A stretch of DNA of 64,000 nt from Flavobacterium sp. SLB02 (GTDB lineage Bacteria > Bacteroidota > Bacteroidia > Flavobacteriales > Flavobacteriaceae). Of this stretch, positions 49,220 to 64,000 are shown one piece after another. Location of the stretch: NCBI RefSeq assembly GCF_009664855.1, contig NZ_CP045928.1:2883755-2947754 (forward strand), written 5' to 3'. Under the pieces are notes generated by a model. It was not told the DNA's origin. It did not search any database and saw only the letters and a list, made by a program, of their open reading frames with translations. The position numbers and the translations under genes are program-made. Every line of letters begins with the position of its first letter. The first letter of the stretch is position 1.

Positions 49220-50500
49220 TTAAAAAGCGGCTTTCATTTTATCTTTAATCGCTTCCAGACATAAATTATTGATACTGCCTTCGTGCGTGTGTTTTGTTTC
49301 TTTTGGAGATTGATACGTTCCTGCTTCTAATTGTTCAGCAACGGCTTTGTATGCATCTCTGAAAGGCATTCCTTCAACCACCATTTCGTTTAAAGTATCT
49401 ACTGTAAACAGATAATCGTATTTTTTATCTTTTAAAATATTGTCTTTTACTGTAATGTCTTTTACAGAGAAAATCGCAATATCTAAACATGCTTTTAGGT
49501 TTTGAAGCGCCGGGAACAAACCTTCTTTTAAAAGCTGTAAATCTCTGTGATATCCGCTTGGTAAATTATTAGTGATTAAGGTGATTTCGTACGGAAGTGC
49601 CTGAATCTTGTTGCATTTTCCTCTGATTAATTCGAATACATCCGGATTTTTCTTGTGAGGCATAATGCTCGATCCTGTTGTAAGATGCGCCGGAAGACCA
49701 ATAAAGTCAAAGTTTTGACTCATGTACAAACAAACATCCATAGCGAATTTTGATAAAGTCCCCGCAACACTTGCCATCGCAAAGGCAACGGTTTTCTCTG
49801 CTTTACCACGGCTCATTTGGGCTGCAACAGCGTTGAATTTTAAAGTTTCAAATCCTAATTCCTGTGTTGTAAATGTTCTGTTGATTGGGAACGAGCTTCC
49901 ATAACCTGCAGCAGATCCTAACGGGTTTTGATCAACGATTTTTGAAGCTGCATTTAACATCGTAATATCGTCAATAAAACTTTCGGCGTAAGCAGAAAAC
50001 CACATTCCGAATGAGGATGGCATGGCGATTTGCAAATGCGTATATCCTGGCAATAAAACATTTTGGTGTTTTTCTGCCGATTCCATTAACAAATCAAACA
50101 ATGTTTTTACCTGTTCTTTTAAGGCTTTTAGTTCGTCTTTCAGATACAAATGAACATCTACCAAAACCTGATCGTTACGAGAACGTGCCGTATGGATTTT
50201 CTTTCCGGCATCGCCCAATTTTACGGTCAATAAATATTCTATTTTAGAATGTACGTCTTCGAAACTGTCTTCGATTTCGAAATTACCTATTACAACATCT
50301 GCAATGATTTCGTTTAAGGCATCAACTAAAGATGTGGTTTCTTCCTGAGTTAATAACCCTATTTGCCCAAGCATTTTGGCATGTGCAATAGAACCTAAAG
50401 CATCGTATTTTGCGAGAACCAAATCAAGTTCACGATCGTTTCCTACTGTGAAATGTTCGATTTGTTTGTCTGTTGGTATTCCTTTTTCCCAAAGTTTCAT
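49220..50500 (-). CDS. argH: Argininosuccinate lyase
   Basis: 426 residues from the ATG at 50500 (MKLWEKGIPTDKQIEHFTVGND). Last arginine step: argininosuccinate to arginine and fumarate. Seen: HTARSRNDQV, LLPGYTHLQ, and the superfamily signature GSSIMPHKKNPDVFELIRGK. Length is slightly shorter than the ~460 of proteobacterial ArgH, as in other Bacteroidota. Last gene of the leftward arg cluster, ending at a strong terminator. Confidence 0.96.
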   Translation of the reverse strand: MKLWEKGIPTDKQIEHFTVGNDRELDLVLAKYDALGSIAHAKMLGQIGLLTQEETTSLVDALNEIIADVVIGNFEIEDSFEDVHSKIEYLLTVKLGDAGKKIHTARSRNDQVLVDVHLYLKDELKALKEQVKTLFDLLMESAEKHQNVLLPGYTHLQIAMPSSFGMWFSAYAESFIDDITMLNAASKIVDQNPLGSAAGYGSSFPINRTFTTQELGFETLKFNAVAAQMSRGKAEKTVAFAMASVAGTLSKFAMDVCLYMSQNFDFIGLPAHLTTGSSIMPHKKNPDVFELIRGKCNKIQALPYEITLITNNLPSGYHRDLQLLKEGLFPALQNLKACLDIAIFSVKDITVKDNILKDKKYDYLFTVDTLNEMVVEGMPFRDAYKAVAEQLEAGTYQSPKETKHTHEGSINNLCLEAIKDKMKAAF

Positions 50501-50515
50501 AGATGATATTTTTTT

Positions 50516-50578
50516 CGCCACGAATTCACGAATTATTTTTGATAATCTTTGAAGATATAAATTCGTGAATTCGTGGCG
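50516..50578. repeat. Intraoperonic palindrome between argE and argH
   Basis: Perfect 19-base arms CGCCACGAATTCACGAATT (50516-50534) and complement (50560-50578), 25-base loop. Same family as the inner pair at 16414. In the mRNA it would form a stable stem just ahead of argH. Confidence 0.85.
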
Positions 50579-50589
50579 GTTTTTCTTTT

Positions 50590-51660
50590 TTATAATTTAA
50601 AGAAATCGGTTAGTATTTTGATATACAAATCGACTCCCTCTTCGATTTCGTTGATGAAAATAAATTCGTCTGCTGAATGTGAACGTAACGTTTCTCCTGG
50701 CCCTAATTTTAATGACTGACAGCTTAGAACAGATTGATCTGAAAGTGTTGGCGAACCATAAGTGGTTCTTCCTAAAGCGATTCCGGCTTGTACTAAACCG
50801 TGTGAGACTGGAATCGATGAAGCATTTAAATGCATTGATCTTGGTGTTACTTCGGCATTTACATTTGCTTTTACTGTTTCTAGAATCTCTGCATTTGTAT
50901 AACGATCGGTTACCCGAATGTCAACCACTAAATCACATTCTGACGGCACGACATTGTGCTGTTTTCCTGCACTGATTTGCGTTACGGTCATTTTTACGGG
51001 ACCTAAAACATCAGAGATCTTATCGAATTTATAGTTTTTAAACCATTCCATTACCGGAATTGATTTGTATAATGAGTTATCGTCGTTTTGATGTGCGGCG
51101 TGGCTTGCGGTTCCTTTTACTTTTACATCAAGAACCAACAAACCTTTCTCAGCTACAGCCAATTGCATTAAAGTTGGTTCGCCCACAATGGCGCAATCCA
51201 GCTCTGGCAAATGCTTTAAAACGCTGTTTAAACCATTTTTTCCACTGCTTTCTTCTTCGGCCGAAGCTACGATTACAAGATTATGAGATAAATTTTGATT
51301 CTGATAAAAATGAACAAAAGTTGCTAATAACGAAACCAGACATCCTCCAGCGTCATTACTTCCTAAACCAAATAATTTGCCATCTTTTTCGATGGCCTTA
51401 AATGGATCGTTGGTATAAGCTTGGTTTGGCTTTACAGTATCGTGGTGTGAATTCAGTAAAAGTGTTGGTTTGTTTTCGTCGAAATATTTATTGAAAGCCC
51501 AAACATTATTATTTTCTCTTTTAAAGGGAATCTCGTTTTGATTGAACCAATTTTCTATTAAAAGTGCCGTTTTATCTTCTTCGCTTGAAAAAGAAGGGGT
51601 TTCGATAAGGCTTTTTAATAAATTAATTGCTTCCTTGGTAAGCGTTGCAATATTTTTCAT
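50590..51660 (-). CDS. argE: M20-family N-acyl-citrulline/ornithine deacylase of the arginine cluster
   Basis: 356 residues. Dinuclear zinc hydrolase: first ligand LLNSHHDTVKP (His-x-Asp), bridging Asp in SNDAGG, general base EEESSGKNG, then the dimerisation domain and final His in LRSHSADEFI. In organisms with an ArgF'-type carbamoyltransferase the enzyme removes the acyl group from N-acyl-citrulline, not from N-acyl-ornithine. Since ArgF' here looks succinyl-specific, its substrate is probably N-succinyl-citrulline; this is inference. Confidence 0.9.
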   Translation of the reverse strand: MKNIATLTKEAINLLKSLIETPSFSSEEDKTALLIENWFNQNEIPFKRENNNVWAFNKYFDENKPTLLLNSHHDTVKPNQAYTNDPFKAIEKDGKLFGLGSNDAGGCLVSLLATFVHFYQNQNLSHNLVIVASAEEESSGKNGLNSVLKHLPELDCAIVGEPTLMQLAVAEKGLLVLDVKVKGTASHAAHQNDDNSLYKSIPVMEWFKNYKFDKISDVLGPVKMTVTQISAGKQHNVVPSECDLVVDIRVTDRYTNAEILETVKANVNAEVTPRSMHLNASSIPVSHGLVQAGIALGRTTYGSPTLSDQSVLSCQSLKLGPGETLRSHSADEFIFINEIEEGVDLYIKILTDFFKL

Positions 51661-51937
51661 AGTTATGTTTTCTTTGCCGTTATCCCGATAACTATCGGGA
51701 CAAAGTCACGAAGTTTTAATTAAATCTGTGACATTTTTAATTTGCGCAAATTTCTTAAATTAAAATTTAAAAGTACTGTGAAGCTCTGTTTTTTTGCCAC
51801 TAATTACACTGATTTTCACAAATTATCTTTTTGCCACACATTTAAAATCAAAATAAACTTTTTTCTGTACGTCTAAAATTATTTTGTCTTTAAACAGAAA
51901 AAATTAGTGTCAATTTGTGTAGTGCGTGGCAATCTAT
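51661..51937. other. Argb-argE spacer made of repeat fragments
   Basis: 277 bases, no gene. It contains a small palindrome TCCCGATA-AC-TATCGGGA at 51683-51700 (the CCCGATAG/CTATCGGG words recur in the terminator at 60714) and two degenerate 'ttgccac...acact' arms near 51795-51850 and 51885-51931. This is by far the widest gap within the cluster; a separate promoter for argE-argH could lie here, though I see no clear one. Confidence 0.6.
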
Positions 51938-52714
51938 TTATAAAGTAATCGTTGTATGCACAACGTCAGGATTTTGAAGCATTTTATGATGTCCAATTTT
52001 GATTTTCTGAACGCCTCTTGATAAACTATTGAAGCAATTATCCAGTTTTGGAATCATTCCGGAATGGATTACTTTTTCTTCTTTTAGTTTATTGTATAAT
52101 ACCTCGTTGATTGCTGTAATTACAGAATTATCATCTTCTGAATCTTGCAAAACACCTTGTTTTTCAAAACAATAAGTAAGTGTAACATCAAAAACTTCAG
52201 ACAATGCAATTGATAATTCACTTGCAATCGTATCAGCGTTTGTGTTTAACAATTGTCCGTTTTTGTCGTGTGTAATAGCGCAGAAAACAGGAACGATTCC
52301 GGCTTCAAGTAGAGTTGCCAATAACTTTGTATTGACTTGGTTTACATCGCCTACAAAACCATAATCAATTGTGGGGTGATTTCGTTTTGTGGACTGAATC
52401 AAATTTCCGTCAGCTCCTGAAAAACCAATTGCGTTATTATTTTTGGCCTGTAATTGCGCTACTATATGTTTATTGATTTGTCCTGCGTAAATCATTACGA
52501 CAACATCAAGCATTGGCGCATCAGTAATTCTGCGTCCGTCAATCATTTGAGGAACTAAACCAATACTTTGAGCCATTTTTGTAGCCGATTTTCCTCCTCC
52601 GTGAACTAAAACTTTATGTCCTTCGATTTTAGAAAAATCGGTTAAGAATTGTTCTAACTCGGTTGGGTTGTCAATGATGTTTCCACCTATTTTTATTACT
52701 GTAACTTTTTTCAT
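51938..52714 (-). CDS. argB: N-acylglutamate kinase
   Basis: 258 residues from the ATG at 52714 (MKKVTVIKIGGNII). Amino-acid kinase fold: KIGGN phosphate loop, VHGGGKSATKMAQSIG, and the nucleotide region NTNADTIASELSIALS. It phosphorylates the gamma-carboxylate of N-acetyl- (or here perhaps N-succinyl-) glutamate. The length is normal and no N-terminal arginine-binding helix of the feedback-inhibited hexameric type is present, so arginine control by this enzyme is unlikely. Confidence 0.94.
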   Translation of the reverse strand: MKKVTVIKIGGNIIDNPTELEQFLTDFSKIEGHKVLVHGGGKSATKMAQSIGLVPQMIDGRRITDAPMLDVVVMIYAGQINKHIVAQLQAKNNNAIGFSGADGNLIQSTKRNHPTIDYGFVGDVNQVNTKLLATLLEAGIVPVFCAITHDKNGQLLNTNADTIASELSIALSEVFDVTLTYCFEKQGVLQDSEDDNSVITAINEVLYNKLKEEKVIHSGMIPKLDNCFNSLSRGVQKIKIGHHKMLQNPDVVHTTITL

Positions 52715-52716
52715 GA

Positions 52717-52802
52717 GGTTCAATGTTCAGAGGAACAAAGGGACAAAGTTTAGATTCAGTGTGTAAAAACCTCTGAACCTTTGCAACTTTGTGCCTTTGT
52801 AC
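52717..52802. repeat. Degenerate 'ttcagagg...acaaagg' palindrome between argF' and argB
   Basis: The left part reads TTCAGAGGAACAAAGGGAC and the right part is its approximate complement (CCTCTGAACCTTTGCAACT). The same text, in either orientation, occurs at 7255-7290, 7430-7470 and 7556-7627. Confidence 0.6.
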
Positions 52803-52808
52803 CTTAAT

Positions 52809-53756
52809 TTACAATTTCTTCAAAATCTTTTGTAAAACTAATTGTGCCGAATACGTTCTGTTATTCGCTTGCTGAATTACAATTGAATTCTCGCTGTCGA
52901 TTACTTCGTCAGTGACAATTACGTTACGACGAACTGGTAAACAGTGCATGAATTTTCCGTTATTGGTCAATGCCATTTTTTCGGCTGTAACCGTCCAATT
53001 TGGATCTAGATTGGTTACTTTTCCGTAATCATTGAAGTTACTCCAGTTTTTTACGTAAACGAAATCGGCATTTTCAAACGCTTTGTTTTGGTCGTATTCG
53101 ATTTTGCAATCTTTTGTAATTTCAGGGCTTAATTCGTAACCTTCCGGATGTGTAATTACAAAATCCATATCTTTTTGCATTTGCATCATTTCTACAAACG
53201 AGTTTGCAACTGCCTGAGGCAACGCTTTTGGGTGCGGTGCCCAGGACAAAACTACTTTTGGTTTGTGTTTTGTTTTGTATTCTTCCATCGTAATAGCATC
53301 TGCCAAAGACTGCATTGGGTGACGCACAGCGCTTTCCATGTTTACAATTGGCACAGTAGCATGTTTCAAAAATCCTGAAATTACAGTTTCAGCATAGTCC
53401 TTTTCTTTGTCAACCAAGCCTGCAAAGGCACGGATTGCGATAATATCACAATATTGAGACACTACCTCTGCCGCTTCTTTAATATGTTCTGAAGCACCTG
53501 AATTCATAATAGCTCCGTCTTCGAATTCTAATGTCCAGCCTTCGTTGGTAAAATTCATCACCATAACGTTCATTCCTAGGTTTATAGCAGCTTTTTGAGT
53601 ACTCAAACGCGTTCTTAAACTTGGGTTGAAGAATAACATTCCTAAGGTTTTATTTTTACCTAAGTCTTGATTTTTAAGTGGGTTCTTTTTGATTTTTAAC
53701 GCACTTTTTACCCATTTTGATAATGAGTCGATATCTTGTATTGAAATATAGTTCAT
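52809..53756 (-). CDS. argF': N-acyl-ornithine carbamoyltransferase (probably N-succinyl-type)
   Basis: 315 residues. Carbamoyl-phosphate site FFNPSLRTRLSTQ, second-domain MESAVRHPMQSLADAI with HPxQ, and MHCLPVRRN. These set it in the ArgF' family that works on N-acylated ornithine rather than ornithine. At the position that decides the acyl group (Glu92 in the Xanthomonas acetyl enzyme, Pro90 in the Bacteroides succinyl enzyme, in the motif xxxxEH) it has Ser89 in NSGASEHIKEA. Non-Glu residues there are expected to favour N-succinyl-ornithine. Fourth from the end of the leftward cluster. Confidence 0.93.
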   Translation of the reverse strand: MNYISIQDIDSLSKWVKSALKIKKNPLKNQDLGKNKTLGMLFFNPSLRTRLSTQKAAINLGMNVMVMNFTNEGWTLEFEDGAIMNSGASEHIKEAAEVVSQYCDIIAIRAFAGLVDKEKDYAETVISGFLKHATVPIVNMESAVRHPMQSLADAITMEEYKTKHKPKVVLSWAPHPKALPQAVANSFVEMMQMQKDMDFVITHPEGYELSPEITKDCKIEYDQNKAFENADFVYVKNWSNFNDYGKVTNLDPNWTVTAEKMALTNNGKFMHCLPVRRNVIVTDEVIDSENSIVIQQANNRTYSAQLVLQKILKKL

Positions 53757-53765
53757 GTCTTTTTC

Positions 53766-53833
53766 TTGTTTAATCGTTAATTTGTTTAACTATTTATTTG
53801 CCCGATCGATTAACCGAATTAACGATTAAACAA
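53766..53833. repeat. AT-rich intraoperonic palindrome, copy A (argF'-proB)
   Basis: Perfect 17-base arms TTGTTTAATCGTTAATT (53766-53782) and complement (53817-53833); the loop contains GATCGATTAACCG. Related to copies at 56059 and 57284. Confidence 0.85.
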
Positions 53834-53843
53834 ATAAACATTT

Positions 53844-54605
53844 CTACACAATTTTCGTAAAAGGAATTTCTCCTTCTAATGCTTTTAGAATAAAATTATC
53901 ATTTAATCCGTTGACGATCCAGGTTTCTATGTTGGCGGCTTTTGCAATTCCCGCTGCTTCTATTTTAGATTGCATTCCGCCTGTTCCGTGTGATGATTTT
54001 GATTCTCCGATTTCCTTTTCTAATACTTTTAAATCTTTTACTAATTGAATCGTTTCAGGATTTTCATCGTGAATGGAATCTTTCGTATAAATTCCGTTTG
54101 TATTCGTCGCAATTATCAGAATATCAACATTTAAAAGGACCGCTGTTAGCGCCGCTAATTTATCATTATCTCCAAACCGAATCTCATCTGTAGCAACGGT
54201 ATCATTTTCATTAATAATCGGAATGTAATTATTCTCGACCAAAACATTAATCGTATTGACAATGTTTACTTTTGACTGGTCTTTTTCGAAATCTGAATAA
54301 GACAATAAACACTGTGATGTCAATAATCCTAAATCGCTGAAATTCTCATGGAAAATCCGCATTAAATGGGGTTGCCCAATTGAGGCCAAAGCTTGTTTTA
54401 ATGCAATTTCTTTGCCTTTGCTCTCGAGCTTTACAAATTGCTTGGCTGCGGCAATGGCTCCTGAACTTACGATTACAAATTCGTAATCTTTGTTAAGAGC
54501 GGCGATTTGCATACCAATATCTTCGATCTTTCCTCGCGAAATATGATTGGTTTCTTTGGTTAAAGTATTACTTCCTATTTTTAATAAAATCCGCTTTTTT
54601 GACAT
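53844..54605 (-). CDS. proB: Glutamate 5-kinase, short form without PUA domain
   Basis: 253 residues from the ATG at 54605 (MSKKRILLKIGSNTLT); the longer in-frame start at 54689 would add a run of residues not seen in the family. Amino-acid kinase domain with KIGSNTLT, VSSGAIAAAKQ, and NENDTVATDEIRFGDND. The C-terminal PUA domain of E. coli ProB is absent, as usual in this phylum. First step of proline synthesis from glutamate; placed with proA inside the arginine cluster. Confidence 0.93.
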   Translation of the reverse strand: MSKKRILLKIGSNTLTKETNHISRGKIEDIGMQIAALNKDYEFVIVSSGAIAAAKQFVKLESKGKEIALKQALASIGQPHLMRIFHENFSDLGLLTSQCLLSYSDFEKDQSKVNIVNTINVLVENNYIPIINENDTVATDEIRFGDNDKLAALTAVLLNVDILIIATNTNGIYTKDSIHDENPETIQLVKDLKVLEKEIGESKSSHGTGGMQSKIEAAGIAKAANIETWIVNGLNDNFILKALEGEIPFTKIV

Positions 54606-54617
54606 GCTGTATTTTTT

Positions 54618-54734
54618 TTCCGCAAAGGGCGCAAGGTTTTTTATTCTGTTTGTGTTTACAAACGCTAAGCTCGCAAGGTTATCTTTCAATAAATTCCAAT
54701 TTTTTAAATTGCTTCGCCTGTTCGCTATCGCTCG
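54618..54734. other. proA-proB spacer with fragments of dispersed repeats
   Basis: No gene. 'CGCAAAGGGCGCAAGG' at about 54621 and GCTAAGCTCGCAAGG at about 54664 are related words; 54707-54734 is an exact 28-base copy of 16460-16487. Rest of the gap to 54839 is AT-rich with 'aatctgaaatcaacaatctaaaatt' type text. Confidence 0.6.
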
Positions 54735-54839
54735 AGTCCAAATTCTAATTCCTACTTTGTGAGTAATAAAAATTCAAAAAATCTGAAATCAGAACTCGTT
54801 AATCCTCAATCTAAAATCTGAAATCAACAATCTAAAATT

Positions 54840-56033
54840 CTATCGAATCTGTCCATCCCCGTATACATACCATTTGTTTGTTACAAGATGCTGTAAGCCA
54901 ATTGGTCCTCTTTGATGTAATTTATCGGTGCTTATCGCTAATTCTCCTCCTAAACCAAATTGTCCTCCGTCAGTAAAACGTGTTGAGGCGTTTTGATAAA
55001 CGGCTGCTGTATCAACGGCATCCATAAATTTTTGTGCTGCTTTGTCATCTTTGGTAATGATTACCGCAGAATGGCCTCCACAATATTTATTTATTTTTTC
55101 GATTGCATTTTCCTCAGAATCAATAGTTCCGATGACAATTTTATAATCTAAAAACTCTTCGTACCAGATATCTTCGTTTTGAAGTGTTTCTGTATCTTCG
55201 AAGCTTTTTAAAGATTCATCGACAATTACTTCTACATTCGATTCTTTTAATGTTTCGATTAAAATAGCTGTAAAACCTTCAAAATTTGGCAATTTAGAAT
55301 CTATCAAAACTTTATCAACTGCGTTACAAGCTGAGATTTTAGAAGTTTTGGCATTTAAAATTACTTTTAAGGCCAAATCTGTATCTGCATATTGATGAAC
55401 GTAAACAAAATTATTTCCACGTCCGCTTACAATTACTGGGCAAGTCGCGTGTTGCTTGACAAACTCAATTAATTTTTCTCCTCCTCTTGGAACAATTAAA
55501 TCTACTTTTTGAGTTGGTTTTTCTAAAAAAGCCTGAGTTTCTGACCGATTATAATTTAAATACTCTACCCAATCTTTTGAAACTCCGTTTTCTTCTAAAG
55601 CCTGATGCCATAGATCAACAATTTTTAAATTGGATTTTAAAGCTTCTTTTCCTCCTTTTAATAAAATCTTATTTCCGGATTTAAAAGCAATTCCTCCTGC
55701 TTCAATGGTAACGTCAGGACGAGATTCGTAAATGATTAAAATCGTACCAAAAGCTGCTGTTTTATTAATGACTCTTATTCCATTATCATGAGTAAAATGA
55801 AAACGCTCTACTCCAACCGGATCTTCTTGTGAAGCTAGTTGATTCAAAGATAAAATCATCTCGTCGACTTTTTTACCATCTACTTTTAGGCGTTCTTCCA
55901 TCGCTAAATCAGAGCCATCGTAAGCTAATAAATCCTCCTGATTGGTGAGTATTATTTGACTCCGCTCTTGCTCGACCAGCTTTGCCATGGAGCGCAAAAC
56001 CAGATTGCGTTTTTCAATTGATAATGGATTCAT
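54840..56033 (-). CDS. proA: Gamma-glutamyl phosphate reductase
   Basis: 397 residues, ALDH-like fold. Reduces gamma-glutamyl phosphate to glutamate 5-semialdehyde with NADPH. Seen: IYESRPDVTIEAGGIAFKSGNKILLKGGKEA, LIVPRGGEKLIEFVK and the catalytic cysteine in ISACNAVDKVLI. Standard length. Pairs with ProB downstream in the operon. Confidence 0.95.
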   Translation of the reverse strand: MNPLSIEKRNLVLRSMAKLVEQERSQIILTNQEDLLAYDGSDLAMEERLKVDGKKVDEMILSLNQLASQEDPVGVERFHFTHDNGIRVINKTAAFGTILIIYESRPDVTIEAGGIAFKSGNKILLKGGKEALKSNLKIVDLWHQALEENGVSKDWVEYLNYNRSETQAFLEKPTQKVDLIVPRGGEKLIEFVKQHATCPVIVSGRGNNFVYVHQYADTDLALKVILNAKTSKISACNAVDKVLIDSKLPNFEGFTAILIETLKESNVEVIVDESLKSFEDTETLQNEDIWYEEFLDYKIVIGTIDSEENAIEKINKYCGGHSAVIITKDDKAAQKFMDAVDTAAVYQNASTRFTDGGQFGLGGELAISTDKLHQRGPIGLQHLVTNKWYVYGDGQIR

Positions 56034-56058
56034 TTTTTTTTGTTTTAATTGGTTAATC

Positions 56059-56106
56059 GTTAATTCGTTTAATCGATTAACCAGTTAAACGATTAAACGA
56101 ATTAAC
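56059..56106. repeat. AT-rich intraoperonic palindrome, copy B (proA-argD)
   Basis: Perfect 17-base arms GTTAATTCGTTTAATCG (56059-56075) and complement (56090-56106) with a 14-base loop ATTAACCAGTTAAA. Confidence 0.87.
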
Positions 56107-56119
56107 AGTTATAGGCAAA

Positions 56120-57259
56120 CTAATTATTAAGCTCTTCTAAACTTTCTTTTAAAGCTACAATAAACGTATCTATATCTGATTTTTTCACCGTTAATGGCGG
56201 TAAAATTCTTAACAGATTTTTGTTGTTAGCACTTCCTGTAAAAATATGTTTTTCGATGATTAATTTCTTTCTTAAAGCAGCTACATCAAAATCGAATTCA
56301 ACGCCAAGCATTAATCCTTTTCCTTTTACTTGCTTGATTCCTGGAACTTCTCTGATTTTTTCTAAGAAATACTCATATACTTCATTTACATTCTTCTGTA
56401 AATCAAGTTTTTCAATTACATCCAGAACCGCGATTCCTGCAGCACAAGACAAGTGGCTTCCACCGAAAGTAGTTCCTAATAATCCGAAACTCGCTTCAAA
56501 TTTTGGAGAAATTAAAATAGCTCCAACCGGAAATCCATTCCCCATTCCTTTTGCAACTGAAATAATATCAGCATTGATTGCGTGGTGTTGGAATGCGAAA
56601 AACTTACCGCTTCTTCCGTATCCTGATTGTACTTCGTCTAAAATTAAAACCACATCGTGTTTTTTACATGCTTTTTCTAGAGCCTGAAAAAACTCGGTTG
56701 TTCCTTCGTCTAAACCTCCCACTCCCTGAATTCCTTCGATAATTACAGCCGAAACATCACCTTTTGCCAGTTCTGCTTCAACTAATTCGATTTGATTTAA
56801 AGGTAAAAAAGTAACTACTTGTTGTGCATTGATTGGTGCTACTATTTTCTTATTATCTGTAACAGCAACGGCCGCAGAAGTTCTTCCGTGAAAAGAATTA
56901 TGAAAAGCTACAACTCTTGATTTTCCGTTATGGAAAGAGGCTAATTTTAAAGCATTTTCGTTTGCTTCAGCTCCCGAACTGCATAAAAACAATTCATAAT
57001 CTTCTAATCCTGAAAGTTTTCCTAATTTTTGAGCCAATTCTACCTGCAAAGGATTTTGAATAGCATTTGAATAAAATCCTAAATGATCTAATTGATTTTT
57101 TAGTTTTTCAACATAATCTGGTTGTGTATGGCCAATTGAGATTACACCATGTCCGCTATATAAGTCTAAATATTCCACTCCGTTCTTATCTGTAATTGTG
57201 CAGTCTAGCGCTTTTACAGGAGTGATATCATAAAGTGGGTATACGTTAAATAAATTCAT
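56120..57259 (-). CDS. argD: N-acyl-ornithine aminotransferase
   Basis: 379 residues, class III aminotransferase. Seen: LDLYSGHGVISIGHTQPDYV, CSSGAEANENALKLA, VVLILDEVQSGYGRSGKFFAFQH and the PLP lysine in ISVAKGMGNGFPVGAI. It converts N-acyl-glutamate semialdehyde to N-acyl-ornithine with glutamate as donor. Acetyl or succinyl specificity cannot be read from it alone. Confidence 0.94.
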   Translation of the reverse strand: MNLFNVYPLYDITPVKALDCTITDKNGVEYLDLYSGHGVISIGHTQPDYVEKLKNQLDHLGFYSNAIQNPLQVELAQKLGKLSGLEDYELFLCSSGAEANENALKLASFHNGKSRVVAFHNSFHGRTSAAVAVTDNKKIVAPINAQQVVTFLPLNQIELVEAELAKGDVSAVIIEGIQGVGGLDEGTTEFFQALEKACKKHDVVLILDEVQSGYGRSGKFFAFQHHAINADIISVAKGMGNGFPVGAILISPKFEASFGLLGTTFGGSHLSCAAGIAVLDVIEKLDLQKNVNEVYEYFLEKIREVPGIKQVKGKGLMLGVEFDFDVAALRKKLIIEKHIFTGSANNKNLLRILPPLTVKKSDIDTFIVALKESLEELNN

Positions 57260-57283
57260 TTTCTTGCTGTTTAATTGTTTAAC

Positions 57284-57317
57284 CGTTCATTTGTTTAATC
57301 GATTAACCGAATAAACG
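57284..57317. repeat. AT-rich intraoperonic palindrome, copy C (argD-argC)
   Basis: Centred on ATCGAT at 57298-57303. Arms of 18 bases, CGTTCATTTGTTTAATCG and CGATTAACCGAATAAACG, pair at 15 positions. Same words as copies A and B, more degenerate. Confidence 0.75.
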
Positions 57318-57338
57318 ATTAACCGTTTTGACAACAAT

Positions 57339-58316
57339 TTAAAATCCGCTTGGTTTCAAATGTAAACCTGTAGTTTCTTCTAATCCGAACATTAAATTCA
57401 TGTTTTGAATCGCTTGTCCTGAAGCACCTTTGGTTAAGTTATCAATGATTGAAGTAATTAAAATCCGGTTTCCTTTTTTCAATAAACTGATGATACATTT
57501 GTTGGTTTGAACGACTTGTTTCATGTTGATGTTTGTCGTTGTAACCGTTACAAAAGGTTCATTTTTATAGAAATCCTTGTATTTAGCAACTAAATCTTCT
57601 AAGCTTTCATCAGAATCTGTATATAATGTTGCAAAAATTCCTCTTGTAAAATCGCCTCTATTCGGAACAAAAATTAATTCATCTGAGTAATCAGCCTGCA
57701 ATTGATTTACGCTTTGGTTGATTTCTCCCAAATGCTGGTGTTCAAAAGCTTTATAATGCGACATATTATTGTTTCTCCAACTAAAATGAGAAGTTTCGGC
57801 AAGACTTACGCCTGCACCTGTACTTCCTGTAGTTGCATTAATATGAACATCATTTTTAAGCAGATTATTTTTAGCTAATGGTAATAAAGCCAATTGAATC
57901 GCTGTAGCAAAACAACCTGGATTTGCAATAAAATTTGCTTTTTTAATTGCAGCTTTATTCAATTCAGGCAATCCGTAAACGAATTCTTTTCCGTCAAAAT
58001 TAGCGTCTTTCGTTAATCTGAAATCATTTCCTAAATCGATGATTTTAGTGTGACCAGCGAACTTATTTTCTTGTAAAAATGAAATCGATTTACCGTGGCC
58101 CAGACATAAAAAAACAACATTTACGTCAGGATTTACAACATCAGTAAAATTCATTTCAATATCTCCCATCAAATCGTGGTGTGCCACAGAAAGTGGTTTT
58201 CCAGCATTTGTCGTACTGTAAACAAAGTCAATGTTTACATTGGGATGATACATCAAGATTCTGATAAGTTCTCCGGCTGTATAACCCGAACCACCAATTA
58301 TTCCGATATTAATCAT
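57339..58316 (-). CDS. argC: N-acyl-gamma-glutamyl-phosphate reductase
   Basis: 325 residues. NADP-binding GIIGGSGYTAGELIRIL, catalytic cysteine in ANPGCFATAIQLALLPL and the His of HQHLGEI-type loop FEHQHLGEINQ. Reduces N-acyl-glutamyl phosphate to the semialdehyde. It begins 8 bases inside the end of argG, which indicates translational coupling. Confidence 0.95.
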   Translation of the reverse strand: MINIGIIGGSGYTAGELIRILMYHPNVNIDFVYSTTNAGKPLSVAHHDLMGDIEMNFTDVVNPDVNVVFLCLGHGKSISFLQENKFAGHTKIIDLGNDFRLTKDANFDGKEFVYGLPELNKAAIKKANFIANPGCFATAIQLALLPLAKNNLLKNDVHINATTGSTGAGVSLAETSHFSWRNNNMSHYKAFEHQHLGEINQSVNQLQADYSDELIFVPNRGDFTRGIFATLYTDSDESLEDLVAKYKDFYKNEPFVTVTTTNINMKQVVQTNKCIISLLKKGNRILITSIIDNLTKGASGQAIQNMNLMFGLEETTGLHLKPSGF

Positions 58317-59502
58317 GATCTAAATGATTTACAGATGAAAATATGTTTTGTGCATTTCCTAAAATCTTAATAAACCCTTTTGCATCGTCAGATGTCCATG
58401 CGTTGTTCATTTCTCCGTACTGACCAAAACCTGTATTCATCAAATCATTATCTGATTCAATTCCGTCAAGCGAAAAATGATATGGTTTTAAAGAAACGGT
58501 TACAACACCATTTACTGTTTTTTGTGTGTCTTGCAAGAATGTTTCGATGTTTCTCATAACCGGATCTAAAAACTGACCTTCATGAAATAACATTCCGTAC
58601 CAGTTTCCTAATTGTTCTTTCCAGTATTGTTGCCATTTACCAAGAGTATGTTTCTCTAATAAATGGTGTGCTTTAATGATGATTAATGGCGCAGCAGCTT
58701 CAAAACCAACTCTTCCTTTAATTCCGATAATTGTATCACCTACGTGAATATCTCTACCAATTGCAAAAGCATTTGCCAGTTTTTCAAGGGCTACAATATT
58801 ATTTGATGGTTTATCTAATTGACCATTTATTCCAACTAATTCTCCTTGTTCAAAATGCAATCTTACTTTTTCTTCTCCTTCTTTTTTCAATTGTGAAGGA
58901 TAAGCGTCACCTGGCAATGGCTGGCTTGAAGTCAGCGTTTCTTTTCCTCCAACGCTTGTTCCCCAAAGTCCTTTATTGATCGAATATTGTGCTTTTTCCC
59001 AAGAATAGTGAACTCCATTTTTAGATAAATAATCAACTTCTTCTTGTCTTGATAATTTTAAATCTCTAATTGGTGTAATGATTTCAATTTCAGGAGCGAT
59101 GGTTTGGAAAATCAAATCAAAACGAATCTGGTCATTTCCTGCACCTGTGCTTCCGTGTGCGATGGCGCTTGCTCCAACTTTTTTAGCATATTTAATGGCT
59201 TCAATTGCCTGAAAAACACGCTCTGCACTTACTGATAATGGATATGTATTGTTTTTTAATACGTTTCCAAAAATCAAATATTTAATAGCTTTATCATAAT
59301 ATTTATCTACGATGGTTAGGTTGGCGTGTTGCGCGCTTCCTAATTCGTAAGCTCTTTTTTCGATTGCCGATAATTCTTCAGCATCAAATCCTCCTGTATC
59401 TACAAGTACGGTGTGAACTTCGTATCCTTTTTCATTTTTTAAATATTTCAAACAATACGAGGTATCTAATCCTCCACTATAAGCTAATACAACTTTTTTC
59501 AT
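58309..59502 (-). CDS. argG: Argininosuccinate synthase
   Basis: 397 residues. ATP pyrophosphatase loop AYSGGLDTSYCL, citrulline/aspartate region AHGSTGAGNDQIRFD. It joins citrulline and aspartate with ATP. Overlaps argC by 8 bases. Second gene of the cluster after the GNAT. The length is a little short for the family but all motifs are present. Confidence 0.95.
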   Translation of the reverse strand: MKKVVLAYSGGLDTSYCLKYLKNEKGYEVHTVLVDTGGFDAEELSAIEKRAYELGSAQHANLTIVDKYYDKAIKYLIFGNVLKNNTYPLSVSAERVFQAIEAIKYAKKVGASAIAHGSTGAGNDQIRFDLIFQTIAPEIEIITPIRDLKLSRQEEVDYLSKNGVHYSWEKAQYSINKGLWGTSVGGKETLTSSQPLPGDAYPSQLKKEGEEKVRLHFEQGELVGINGQLDKPSNNIVALEKLANAFAIGRDIHVGDTIIGIKGRVGFEAAAPLIIIKAHHLLEKHTLGKWQQYWKEQLGNWYGMLFHEGQFLDPVMRNIETFLQDTQKTVNGVVTVSLKPYHFSLDGIESDNDLMNTGFGQYGEMNNAWTSDDAKGFIKILGNAQNIFSSVNHLDHD

Positions 59503-59567
59503 TTTTTATAATTTAGGCTAATACTTTCGTATGTAGCAAGTTTGAGATTTCTTTTTTAATTTAATTC

Positions 59568-60209
59568 TTAAGATAAAAAACCGAAAGACAGTATTTTATT
59601 CAGGAATAAAGCTTGTTTTATTTTTTTTAATCTGCTTAGAACAGCCTCATTAAAAGGATGTCTTGGCGGATCTTTTTGTTTTTCTTTTGGGTCGTACAGC
59701 ATTCCGGTACAAAGGCACATCTTGTTTTCTTTGCTTTTCAGAATTTCATAGTTGGTACAGGTTTTACATCCTGACCAAAAACTTGGATCTGTTGTAAGTT
59801 CAGAGAAAGGAACTGGTTTATAACCTAAATCAGAGTTGATTTTCATTACAGCCAAGCCGGTTGTAATACCAAATATCTTAGCGTCAGGGTATCTTTTTAG
59901 AGAATAATCAAATACTTTTGATTTGATTTTTTTCGCCAAACCTAAACTTCTGTAATCCGGATGTACAATTAAACCAGAATGTGCCACGAATTTTCCGTGT
60001 TGCCAACTTTCGATATAACAAAAACCTGCAAATTTTCCGTCTGCCAGAGCAATCATCGCATCACCGTTCGACATTTTTTTCTGAATGTATTCAGGAGTTC
60101 TTTTAGCAATCCCTGTACCTCTTAACAAGGCAGATGATTCTATTGTATCGCAAATTTCCTGTGCGAATTTGAAGTGTTCTTCCTGAGTAACAACAATAGA
60201 GATTTTCAT
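59568..60209 (-). CDS. GNAT acyltransferase leading the arginine cluster; candidate acyl-glutamate synthase
   Basis: 213 residues. GNAT domain about 1-145 with the acyl-CoA loop in HPDYRSLGLAKKIKSK. After it there is a four-cysteine knuckle, Cys148-x2-Cys151 ... Cys165-x-Cys167, that could bind a metal. The C-terminus is basic. The cluster has every enzyme from acyl-glutamate to arginine except the one that makes acyl-glutamate; no argA, argJ or kinase-fused synthase is present, and this gene is first in line. It is therefore the best candidate for N-succinyl- or N-acetyl-glutamate synthase. The role is inferred from position, the fold from sequence. Confidence 0.78.
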   Translation of the reverse strand: MKISIVVTQEEHFKFAQEICDTIESSALLRGTGIAKRTPEYIQKKMSNGDAMIALADGKFAGFCYIESWQHGKFVAHSGLIVHPDYRSLGLAKKIKSKVFDYSLKRYPDAKIFGITTGLAVMKINSDLGYKPVPFSELTTDPSFWSGCKTCTNYEILKSKENKMCLCTGMLYDPKEKQKDPPRHPFNEAVLSRLKKIKQALFLNKILSFGFLS

Positions 60210-60365
60210 TTCAATAGTTGAAGTTAGAGTTAAAAATTAAAACGTGTTGTTTAGTTTGAAATCCAGAAATCGATCCAACAAAAATAGACATAACAGAAGT
60301 AACATTCTCAAAATCAAAAACTTGATTAAGAAAATTTAAAAAATTAAATATATTTTTAGGATATG

Positions 60366-60502
60366 TTTGTCCAATGGACAAATTGTGTGATTTCAAAATG
60401 AAAAATGAATATAAATAAATATGCGGCGAAAAACTCTGTGAATACTATAGAGATAGTATCCGTACTTCGGGAGAAGTTACAGGTGAGTTTGTCCGTGACA
60501 AA
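60366..60502 (-). ncRNA. Candidate structured leader RNA of the arginine cluster
   Basis: Read on the minus strand between a promoter at 60537 and the GNAT start at 60209. Pairings (plus coordinates): P1 60431-60436 with 60485-60490, extended by 60437-60439 with 60479-60481; P2 60442-60448 with 60453-60459, loop 4; P3 60464-60468 with 60473-60477, loop GGGA. Together a three-way junction. Two hairpins flank it with the same arms: TTTGTC-N3-GACAAA at 60488-60502 and TTTGTCC-N3-GGACAAA at 60366-60382. The first shares three bases with P1, so the two cannot coexist. It matches no riboswitch class I can recall. Structure is by eye only. Confidence 0.45.
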
Positions 60503-60536
60503 GAAGTTATATGTAAACTTATTTTATTCATCGGTG

Positions 60537-60564
60537 CAAAAATACACTATTTTTTTATTTCCAA
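60537..60564 (-). promoter_or_regulatory. Promoter upstream of the arginine-cluster leader
   Basis: Minus strand TTG (60564-60562), 17-base spacer, TATTTTTG (60544-60537). Predicted start near 60531, giving ~320 bases of leader. A second TATTTTTG-like box lies near 60280, which would give a much shorter leader, so both could be used. Confidence 0.6.
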
Positions 60565-60713
60565 AACAAAAAATCAAAATTCTAACATTTTTTTAATGAA
60601 ATGTTATTTTTATAAGATGCTAGAATTCTAAGTTACTAAGGTTCTGAATCTTTGCTAAAATGATGATCTAAACAAAACTTGGTGAGCTTACAACTGGAAA
60701 TCAAAACCAAAAG

Positions 60714-60746
60714 AAAACCCGATAGCTACTGTAACTATCGGGTTTT
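60714..60746 (-). terminator. Terminator after the M1 peptidase gene
   Basis: AAAACCCGATAG and CTATCGGGTTTT, perfect 12-base arms, 9-base loop. The rest of 60565-60772 shows no gene. Confidence 0.83.
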
Positions 60747-60772
60747 AAGAATTTTATAATTTTATTTTATTT

Positions 60773-63043
60773 TTATTTTTTAGTAAACGGAATTGTTTCT
60801 CCGTTACCTAAAATAATCATATCGAAACCTGTTTTAGCTTCATTAAACTTAAATTTTAATCCGGCACTTGTAGATTGAAATGTGTCTTTTTCGTTTTCTA
60901 CAGGAGCTACAGTAAACTTAGGAAAGTTTGTAATTTCAACATTTAATGTGCTGTTCTTTTCGGTAAAATCAATTTTCAAAGGTGCTCTTGAAGTTGAATA
61001 TGTTCCTAAATAACCATCTAAAATTACATCTTTCTCTATTTTACCGTTTCCCGATGTCCACACGTTGTTTGCTTCGTTATTATCCGGAAAAACATGATCA
61101 GGATCAAGAGTAATACTTTCGATTTCTTCTGTAGAATTATGTTTAAAAGACCATACAGTATTACGTTGCCAAATTTCTACAGGCAATTTAACTCTTGTAA
61201 CCTTCCCGCTTTTTGTTTTCACATCTAAAATAATCGGCATTGGCATTTTATCAAAATTCTCTACTGTAATTATAACTCCTTTTGACGGATCATTTTTTAC
61301 ATATTTTATTGAATTAATTCCCTGATCAAAACGCCAGTTGTTTACGTACCAGCTTCTCCAGAACCAGCTTAAATCTTCACCAGCTACATTTTCCATAGAT
61401 CTGAAAAAGTCATCCGGTTGAGGATGTTTGTAAGCCCAACGCTCTATATAAGTACGGAAAGCATTATCAAAACGCTCTTTTCCTAATATTTGTTCTCTTA
61501 AAATAACCAATCCAGAACTTGGTTTAAAATAGCATAACATACCAATATTAGCTTCCTTCATATTATCAGGCGAACTCATTATAGTTTCTAAGCTAGGTCT
61601 GGTAAAAGATTCTGCAGCTTTATGTAAATCTGTTGGTGCTTCTACATATTCACCTTTATTAAATTCCGCAGTGCTTAACGAATTGATAAAAGTATTAAAA
61701 CCTTCATCCATCCAGGCAAACAATCTTTCATTTGAACCAACAATCATAGGAAACCAGATATGACCAAATTCATGATCTGTAACTCCCCATAAATCCTGGC
61801 CTTTTGATTCCCAGCTGCAAAAAACGATTCCAGGATATTCCATTCCGCCTTCATTTCCTGCTACGTTTGTCGCTGCAGGATAAGGATATTCAAACCATGT
61901 TTTAGAGTAATGCTCTATCGCTGCTTTTACATATTCTGTAGAACGGCCATAAGCTCCCTGTCCTGCACTTTCTACCGGATAAGCAGATAAGGCCAACGAT
62001 TTTTTACCACTTGGCAAATTAATTTTTGCTCCGTCCAAAACAAAAGCAGGAGATGACGCCCAAGAAAAATCACGAGCATTTTTGATCTGATAATGCCATG
62101 TTTTTTCACCAGTAGCATTTGTATTTGCTGTTGCAGCAACTTCTTCGGCAGAACGAATTGTAACTGTTTTATCGCTTTGACCAGCTTCTTTATAACGTTT
62201 AAAAACCTCCGCAGGCAATACTTCTGCCCCGTTTATCAATTCTCCTGAACCTACAACATAATGATTGGCAGGAACGGTAAGTTTTACATCAAAATTACCG
62301 TATTCTAAGTAAAACTCAGAAGCTCCTAAATACGGATGCGTGTTCCAGCCTCTTACATCATCATACACACACATACGGGGATACCATTGTGCAATGGTGA
62401 AAATTTTACCATTTTTAGTTTCTAAAACTCCCATTCTGTCTGATCCTTCAAAAGGAGCTGTGAACGCAAATTCGATTTTAATTTTTACTGTACCTCCTTT
62501 TGATGCTAATTCTTCAGGAAGAAATATTTGCATTCTGGTGTCTGTAATTACATATTTTGCTTCAACATCAGTTTTTTTCTTTCCAACAGAAATTACTTTA
62601 ACTGATTTAATTTTATTTCCTCCATCAAAAACCTGCCCCTGAGCACCGTTACGGCTTCCCGTTAAAGGCACAACTGCATTTCCTCTTGAATCTTCTTTGA
62701 ATAAATTCTGATCTAAATTCAACCATACAAATCCTAATTTATCAGGACTATTATTGGTATACGTGATTTCATCTGTACCAATAATTTCATTTGTAGTCGC
62801 ATTTAATTTTGCCGTTATCTGATAATCGGCCCTGTTTTGCCAATATTCAACTCCCGGCTGACCACTTGCAGAACGAGTCGAAGTCCCGTTTTTTGTATAA
62901 AAATTGGGCGAAAACGCATCATGATAACTATAATTATTAACTGGAGTTACTACTGCTGTTGCAGGCTTTTGTTGTGCCCAAACAGAAGAAATCCCAACAA
63001 ACAAAGCCATGGTTAATAAGGCTCTCGAAGATTGTATTTTCAT
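60773..63043 (-). CDS. Secreted M1-family metallopeptidase
   Basis: 756 residues from the ATG at 63043, which starts a signal peptide (to about VWAQ). Gluzincin domain: exopeptidase-like GGMEYPG, zinc motif HEFGH followed 18 residues on by the third ligand in DEGFNTF. Upstream is the M1 beta-domain ([20 protein letters not shown]); downstream a helical region and a small C-terminal beta-domain. The usual GAMEN is GGMEY here, as in many Bacteroidota enzymes, so the peptidase may not be a strict aminopeptidase. Periplasmic or outer-membrane associated. Single gene. Confidence 0.92.
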
Positions 63044-63229
63044 ATTTTTTAGCTGTTTATGTAGCAAATTAATGAAAAAAAAAGCTATTTACAGAGAAAG
63101 CATGAAGCTTAAATTGAATTTTAGCAAAATTTTATCAAAAAAATAATTTGAAGCATTTTCCTAAAAAACTAAAATTTATAAAATATATTTACATCAATAT
63201 AAATTTCATTCATTTCAACACTAAACACT

Positions 63230-64000
63230 TTGAATACAACTATTTCAAATTCAACAATAAGTGCCTCTATAAAACATGCCGGAGCCGAATTATTTTCATT
63301 AAAAAGCAATCAAAACAAAGAGTACATCTGGGAAGGCAATCCTGATTTTTGGGGAAAGCACTCTCCTGTTCTTTTTCCTATTGTAGGAACTTTAAAAAAC
63401 AATACTTATACAATTGAAGGAAAAGAATATCAATTACCAAGACATGGTTTTGCACGTGATATGGAGTTTCAATTGATTCATAAAACCGAAAACAGTGCTA
63501 CTTTTTCGTTAGAATCGACAACAGAAACACTTACAAAATATCCTTTTGAATTTGAACTACAGCTTATTTATACACTTAAAGAAGCTTCATTACATATAGG
63601 ATATAAAGTCATTAATAAAAGTGGTAAAAAATTGCCTTTCTCTATTGGGGCTCATCCGGCAATAGCATTACCTAAAAATTTTGAAAACTATGCTTTTGAA
63701 TTCGAAAAAAAAGAAGTTTTAAAATATCATCTTTTAGAAAATGATTTAATTTCTAACAAAACAAAAGTTTTAGAAACCACTAACAATATTGTTCCTTTAA
63801 ATTATAAATTATTCGAGAACGATGCCTTGATTTTTAAAACATTAGAATCAAAATCATTAAGTATTCTTGAAAATTCAAAGCCTTATATAAAAGTTGCTTT
63901 TGAAGATTTTCCAAGCTTAGGACTTTGGACTAAAGATCAGGCGCCTTTTATCTGTGTTGAACCCTGGCTAGGTTATTCAGATACTGCTGAAAACTCTGGA
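63230..64000 (+). CDS. Aldose 1-epimerase family protein, 3' end outside the window
   Basis: 257 codons are visible with no stop, running off the right edge. Start is a TTG at 63230; a TAA lies in frame at 63200 and no ATG is between them. Seen: NEYIWEGNPDFWGKHSPVLFPIVGTL near the N-terminus, HGFARDMEFQL with the catalytic His, and SIGAHPAIALP with the second conserved His, all typical of the YihR/LacX-like galactose mutarotase branch. It interconverts anomers of aldoses or aldose phosphates. Divergent from the M1 peptidase. Confidence 0.85.
   Translation, partial: MNTTISNSTISASIKHAGAELFSLKSNQNKEYIWEGNPDFWGKHSPVLFPIVGTLKNNTYTIEGKEYQLPRHGFARDMEFQLIHKTENSATFSLESTTETLTKYPFEFELQLIYTLKEASLHIGYKVINKSGKKLPFSIGAHPAIALPKNFENYAFEFEKKEVLKYHLLENDLISNKTKVLETTNNIVPLNYKLFENDALIFKTLESKSLSILENSKPYIKVAFEDFPSLGLWTKDQAPFICVEPWLGYSDTAENSG

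Follow-up and report, generated by a model that had tools for sequence, protein, structure and literature searches.

A candidate arginine attenuator with sensor codons at a three-way junction, upstream of the arginine operon of Flavobacterium sp. SLB02

Results and Discussion

The arginine operon and its promoter

We have analyzed the region upstream of the arginine operon in Flavobacterium sp. SLB02. The window studied is a stretch of 64,000 nucleotides (contig NZ_CP045928.1, positions 2,883,755 to 2,947,754), and all coordinates given here are positions within it. A summary of the features is presented in Table 1. The first gene of the operon encodes a protein that we take to be a GNAT-like acetyltransferase; it gave no match in an NCBIfam search at E <= 1e-10, and may be the N-acylglutamate synthase that is missing from the arginine pathway. 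Among the genes that follow, argG, argD and the deacylase gene were named by best match, with scores under NCBIfam's own cut-offs.

The promoter proposed in an earlier, sequence-only reading of this DNA is present on the minus strand, and its TTG-17-TATTTTTG form is presumably of the Bacteroidetes type. A TAnnTTTG motif lies 4 to 8 bases before the start of the leader in the window and in all but one (L062) of the 80 loci described below (80 of 81). The same reading had counted about 320 bases between this promoter and the first start codon. That distance has to be revised, since an ATG at 60531, 5 bases past the box, opens a conserved ORF. On the upstream side, a terminator-like site of 15 pairs (60746-60714, minus strand) lies 3' of the preceding gene (60773-63067, minus strand) and sets the arginine promoter apart.

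Textbook arginine operons are under ArgR control. The earlier observation that no ArgR-type gene is in view can be extended from the window to the whole SLB02 genome, in which ArgR (PF01316) was not found. The search in relatives covered 75 genomes and omitted 20 more; none of the 75 scored above the cut-off, and one gave a weak match under it. In the controls ArgR was found in 9 of 14.

Table 1. Features of the arginine operon leader in the window, in the order of transcription.
Feature	Position	Strand	Remarks
Promoter, TTG-17-TATTTTTG	60537..60564	-	TTG at 60564, 17-base spacer, TATTTTTG at 60544-60537
Leader 1 ORF, 28 codons, MNKISLHITSLSRTNSPVTSPEVRILSL-stop	60445..60531	-	ATG 5 bases after the -7 box
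First palindrome, TTTGTC-ACG-GACAAA	60488..60502	-	Surrounds the first CGG; overlaps P1
Putative first sensor codon, CGG (Arg 13)	60493..60495	-	5' foot of P1; paired at the base of P1 in the minimum-energy fold of the window
P1 5' strand, AAACTC	60485..60490	-	From fold, own-versus-cross duplex test and model-fitted alignment
P2 hairpin, ACTTC-TCCC-GAAGT	60464..60477	-	99.5% of cells paired, few changes
Putative second sensor codon, CGG (Arg 24)	60460..60462	-	5' foot of P3
P3 hairpin, GGATACTAT-loop-ATAGTATTC	60440..60461	-	Contains the leader stop codon TAG
P1 3' strand with run of T, GAGTTTTTCG	60427..60436	-	From duplex test and folds
Possible leader 2, TTG-start frame, 61 codons	60211..60396	-	Without Arg; TGA one base before the GNAT ATG
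Second palindrome, TTTGTCC-ATT-GGACAAA	60366..60382	-	120 bases further on; inside the leader 2 frame
GNAT-like acetyltransferase, operon gene 1	59568..60209	-	argG adjoins in 40 of 40 genus loci
argG, argC, argD, proA, proB, N-acetylornithine carbamoyltransferase type, argB, ArgE/DapE-type deacylase, argH	49220..59502	-	Rest of the operon

A conserved reading frame with two rare arginine codons

Relatives of the locus were searched with the GNAT protein, and the best 80 of at least 522 candidates were retained, 77 of which are titled Flavobacterium. The upstream regions of these 80 loci align over about 330 bases. Strain CI04 of F. johnsoniae, a laboratory species, is among them (L031) and shows the same leader as the window. 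Together with the window and 11 further genus loci picked for the core pattern they make up a set of 92 sequences. The order of elements in the conserved core is the box, the ATG, 39 bases to the end of TCACGG, 15 bases, ACTTCNCCCGAAGT, ACGGA and P3.

In 90 of 91 sequences a single frame connects the start codon of leader 1 with both CGG codons; L048, with CCT for CCC, was missed by the pattern used in this test. The single exception, L065, is a MAG with one extra base within a run of A, and in L125 the ATG lies one codon later, which amounts to an in-frame deletion of 3 bases. The pattern itself contains the first CGG, and the invariance of the codons was therefore taken from a separate count, in which the window and the 80 loci were located by P2 alone and CGG was not demanded. 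CGG occupies both sites in all 81 of these, with the first exactly 15 nt before P2 in 80. The codon is otherwise rare: 36 long ORFs, called mechanically in the window, contain 474 arginine codons, of which 9 are CGG. The 15 nt that separate the first CGG from P2 change fast, with 149 inferred changes in codons 14-18, yet their number is constant in 90 of 91 sequences (L065 again excepted). The stop codon, with the frame counted from the second CGG, falls inside the P3 hairpin in 92 of 92.

A conserved peptide was considered and ruled out by the changes in codons 2-12, which number 44, 54 and 55 at positions 1, 2 and 3 and show no third-position bias. Some bias of this kind is seen in codons 19-24 (6, 2 and 13 changes). 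Judged from this pattern of substitution, what is preserved in leader 1 is the frame and the two CGG codons rather than a protein. Codons 2-12 give no positive coding signal, and their lack of amino acid conservation is compatible with codon sensing.

A three-way junction inside the reading frame

Leader 1 passes through a three-way junction, so that the conserved structure sits inside the kept frame. The three helices, P1, P2 and P3, had been drawn by eye in the sequence-only reading; they are found at those places and recur in relatives. The core of the window folds as P1/P2/P3 with -18.6 kcal/mol (z -2.8), and none of 200 shuffles folded as well. Five chosen relatives give the same fold with z between -1.1 and -4.1. 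Among 70 distinct cores the minimum-energy fold contains P1 (with at least 4 pairs), P2 and P3 in 68, and the remaining two, L030 and L078, have 3 pairs in P1. The proviso that the pairing might be due to chance can thus be set aside.

The letters and the register of P1 shift among species, and the two strands still fit each other. The mean duplex energy of each 5' strand with its own partner is -5.5, against -3.5 (sd 0.22) with exchanged partners, and none of 2000 permutations was as good; the test used 47 non-redundant pairs, with duplicates merged and L037 and L048 left out, and its permutation ignores relatedness. In an alignment not fitted to the structure, double changes were found in 4 of 14 pairs of P2 and P3 (shuffles 2.0; 4 of 500 as high), divided as 1 of 5 pairs in P2 and 3 of 9 in P3. 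A model-fitted alignment of 93 matches (78 distinct rows), which leans towards the structure, has double changes in 14 of 23 pairs (shuffles 9.5; 0 of 500), and in it the lower P1 pairs are 73.9% paired and the upper ones 47.0%. RNAalifold applied to a MAFFT alignment missed P1, as this helix slides between species. Covariation in homologous leaders, which the earlier reading had put forward as a check, is thus seen in P1 and P3, while P2 is so nearly invariant that it can show little of its own. Within 30 nt past P3 some 8-base window holds 5-7 T in all 70 cores, a count made without control against an AT-rich background.

Arginine-rich leaders in the genus and the family

A match was present in 113 of 199 genus genomes. 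From these we chose a second sample of 40 loci, divergent for the most part. By reading, 11 of these have the core of the window type, 18 have another leader with clustered arginine codons, 10 have none and one (L121) is cut by a contig end. The 18 divergent leaders encode other peptides in which the arginine codons, mostly CGG, are clustered, for example those ending in SILRTFPAQTLRVVRS-stop or SRSSRSRA-stop; the ORF with most arginine was picked at each locus, so that this count is no test.

Outside the genus, argG was found in 172 of 239 family genomes, and 60 loci were taken, 57 of them with GNAT just upstream. An ORF with at least 3 arginines in its last 8 residues is present within 350 bases upstream of GNAT in 54 of these 57. 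The reverse strand has one in 5 of 57, and dinucleotide-shuffled sequences in about 1.5 of 57; the ORFs were picked by rule, and a few of them may not be the leader. Typical ORFs end in RRRRP-stop or RRRP-stop. In other families of the class a similar rule, applied without control, found an arginine-rich ORF in 10 of 20 loci.

Leader 2 and tandem leaders

The leader 2 frame (62 codons with the stop included) is open over the same length in 47 of 81 sequences, 12 of which have one or two arginines in it. As a conserved protein it was rejected, since the changes by codon position (212, 203 and 200) carry no coding signal. In L115-L119 the frame from the matching TTG ends in RP-stop and, by its sequence, looks like a second arginine leader. 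Tandem arginine ORFs are present in several genera; in L204, for example, MNSKKNKIRTFSPGLRLRNRRR-stop is followed by an ORF ending in HRIFVRRP-stop. A leader 2 pattern is matched by 49 of the 57 family loci. In 47 of the 49 (the exceptions are L172 and L183) it ends in Arg-Pro-stop, and a hairpin such as CGCCC-GTAA-GGGTG carries the stop in its loop; a conserved AGGTGAGTCC hairpin lies 3' of this family leader 2.

Just 3' of the second arginine leader in L155-L214, about 90-120 bases before GNAT, is an element of the form CGCCCGTAAGGGTG ... GGAA-AGGTGAGTCC-TTCC (for example L165:715-819). The element is nearly invariant in 49 loci and corresponded to no Rfam family in the loci tested; its GGAA-AGGTGAGTCC-TTCC part has no obvious T run.

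A tentative scenario, to which we give well under even odds, is that the junction of the window clade is a branched terminator with two built-in sensors, and that this clade belongs to a tandem-leader lineage in which it would have kept leader 1 as the sensor, while leader 2 would have become an arginine-poor frame with a single base between its end and the first gene.

A model for arginine attenuation

The region upstream of the arg operon combines a short conserved ORF near the predicted start of the transcript, codons for an end product of the operon at a conserved place within that ORF, and an RNA structure that a stalled ribosome could alter. We therefore propose, with a probability of about 0.75, that it is a ribosome-mediated arginine attenuator with a codon-sensing leader peptide. 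Transcription would start immediately 5' of the 60531 ATG, and translation of the leader peptide would follow without delay. As long as charged Arg-tRNA is abundant, the ribosome would clear both CGG codons, reach the stop codon in P3 and leave; the P1/P2/P3 junction with its T-rich 3' strand could then close, and transcription of the operon would be stopped early. When arginine is short, the ribosome would wait at one of the two codons, CGG13 or CGG24. If CGG13 occupies the A site, about 13 bases (60495-60483) would be covered, including the P1 5' strand (60490-60485); if CGG24 does, the covered stretch would be 60462-60450, which is the 5' arm of P3. A stall at either codon would break the junction and allow RNA polymerase to enter GNAT-argG and the rest of the operon. 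Each sensor codon would thus be placed where a stall opens one helix, because the covered bases hold either the P1 5' strand or the P3 5' arm. We infer both the translation of the leader with stalling at CGG and the ending of transcription by the closed junction, rather than by Rho or a block of translation.

Several observations do not fit the model well. Classical attenuators carry runs of sensor codons, whereas leader 1 has only two, and these are separated. The junction is no canonical terminator, and none was scored here or in six relatives. Ten of the 40 sampled Flavobacterium loci are without such a leader. Finally, L065 has its extra base within the ORF, and codons 2-12 are without coding signal.

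Comparison with known systems

In leader-peptide attenuators of the his, trp, leu and ilv type, the transcript begins with a short ORF that is rich in codons for what the operon makes, and a hairpin follows. SLB02 itself has a leader of this type upstream of hisG (L215), MISIQLHHHHFHYCSQAMC-stop, which contains HHHHFH and precedes a long hairpin that has a T run (read by eye). This His leader and its hairpin suggest that the organism probably uses attenuation elsewhere in its genome. The arginine leader shares with these systems the short early ORF with codons for the operon's product and the hairpin after it; it differs in the amino acid, in having two separated rare CGG codons at the feet of a junction and in that no separate downstream terminator was seen.

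Rare arginine codons are known in leaders of other genes. According to the available parts of the report on the Salmonella orf34-speF leader, ribosome pausing at rare arginine codons (AGG, CGG) refolds the mRNA according to the supply of arginine (PMC6386406). The likeness to the present case lies in the rare arginine codons of the leader ORF and the arginine-dependent mRNA fold, which is a prediction here. Unlike the operon described here, the target in that account is ornithine decarboxylase, controlled through Rho, RNase G and the ribosome-binding site, in another phylum (PMC6386406). In Staphylococcus aureus, the portion available of the rbfL study describes rare arginine codons in a small upstream ORF that sense arginine shortage, with toeprints at +13 of the arginine codons (PMC13009471); the cover of about 13 bases downstream of an A-site CGG assumed in the model is taken from these toeprints. 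There, in contrast to our model, the stalled ribosome blocks translation of a biofilm regulator and so represses under shortage, and the target is not an arginine operon (PMC13009471).

Closer to SLB02, excerpts of a study of structured 5' elements in F. psychrophilum, a member of the same genus, report strong clues for leader-peptide attenuation before amino acid biosynthesis operons; pheA, hisG and others are named in these excerpts, and arginine is not (PMC9723704). For Pseudomonas carA, the part consulted of PMC4997734 describes a P. aeruginosa leader peptide upstream of a gene common to arginine and pyrimidine synthesis, with attenuation predicted or hypothesised for P. syringae; this is another gene in another phylum. 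The accessible sections of PMC8632094 contain no Flavobacterium element. We found no description of an arginine leader peptide for an arginine biosynthetic operon of Bacteroidetes in the open-access literature searched, supplements aside. Arginine-codon leaders are described for speF and rbf.

As a candidate case in which an arginine biosynthetic operon would itself be attenuated by arginine, the leader has an unusual geometry: its putative sensor codons stand at the feet of a three-way junction. The operon downstream of it makes both arginine and proline. Members of the family without detected ArgR appear to sense arginine via leader peptides, in tandem in some genera.

Alternative explanations

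The strongest alternative leaves the arginine-codon leader peptide in place and has it act through Rho-dependent termination or through control of GNAT translation instead of a junction terminator. We consider this a serious possibility, if one falling somewhat short of even odds. In its favour, a terminator scanner scored no canonical terminator on the minus strand between the leader and GNAT, nor did it score one where the leader ORF ends in the six relatives L139-L144. In these six the last arginine codon and the stop overlap a hairpin that is followed by a T run when read by eye, which speaks against this alternative, as does the T-rich run directly after P1 in the window clade. The leader-end hairpins, however, are weak when folded alone (z -0.2 for L139 and -0.9 for L144). 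The scanner also gave no score to the His-leader hairpin before hisG, and the clear terminators that had been read by eye at the L139-L144 leader ends and before hisG were accordingly given up. The branched junction with its T run is a possible device for the off state; no canonical terminator was scored in the window or at the leader end in L139-L144. In other genera the second leader is followed by the GGAA-AGGTGAGTCC-TTCC element, again without an obvious T run, and in the window clade a single base separates the end of the second frame from the start of GNAT, both of which would suit Rho or a translational control. Salmonella speF offers a precedent, in the parts of that report available, for arginine codons paired with Rho (PMC6386406).

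A ligand-binding riboswitch, in which the junction would be the aptamer for arginine or a pathway metabolite and the ORF incidental, is in our view very improbable. The earlier reading had suggested an arginine-responsive leader of a new class. A structured and probably arginine-responsive leader is supported by the present results; a new class that binds arginine itself is not favoured by them, since the structure lies in a kept frame and distant relatives retain an arginine-clustered ORF, which is also why we see in it the signature of attenuation. The near invariance of CACGGA, CCC and ACGGA, in the three-way junction and next to it, would suit an aptamer, but the frame is maintained even in stretches that tolerate substitution. 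The Rfam search that had been proposed yielded no family above threshold and only sub-threshold matches in positions 50000-64000 of the window and in the loci of eight relatives. Within the window's own genome an RNA model of the element, R1, matches no other place. Arginine-rich ORFs are widespread in the family, yet R1 gave 3 matches over 397 family genomes, all in the genus; with its strict filters and 9 candidates scored per genome this is a weak negative. Attenuation is the best explanation of these observations and is favoured over the riboswitch.

Sensing of free arginine by arrest of the nascent peptide, as in the fungal arginine attenuator peptide, would account for the near invariance of SPEVR in the window clade. 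Against it, the peptides of sister lineages differ while the arginine codons stay, codons 2-12 lack conservation, and the codons of SPEVR also build the P2 helix and the foot of P3. Because the peptide as such is not conserved, we rate this mechanism lower still.

The two palindromes had been read as hairpins with nearly identical arms, of which the first would exclude P1 as in a regulatory switch. The first does overlap P1, and the second is present 120 bases further on (60382-60366), though in nearer relatives only. Of the 92 sequences, 66 have at least 4 contiguous pairs in the first palindrome and the other 26 have 0-1, which rules out a switch between palindrome and P1 as a general part of the system. 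That these near-identical dyads, 120 bases apart, are operators of a DNA-binding regulator and the RNA irrelevant is the least probable reading of all, as the first dyad is missing in those 26, the second is limited to nearer relatives and the junction covaries as RNA.

The ten genus loci without a leader (L135-L137, L145 and L148-L153) have a promoter-like box 26-44 bases before GNAT. Nine of them carry a GATA-N3-TATC palindrome close to the promoter, in the last 250 bases before GNAT. Because ArgR was not found in those genomes, the palindrome is perhaps, to judge from its sequence and position, an operator of another regulator. Three copies are present in L148, L149 and L151.
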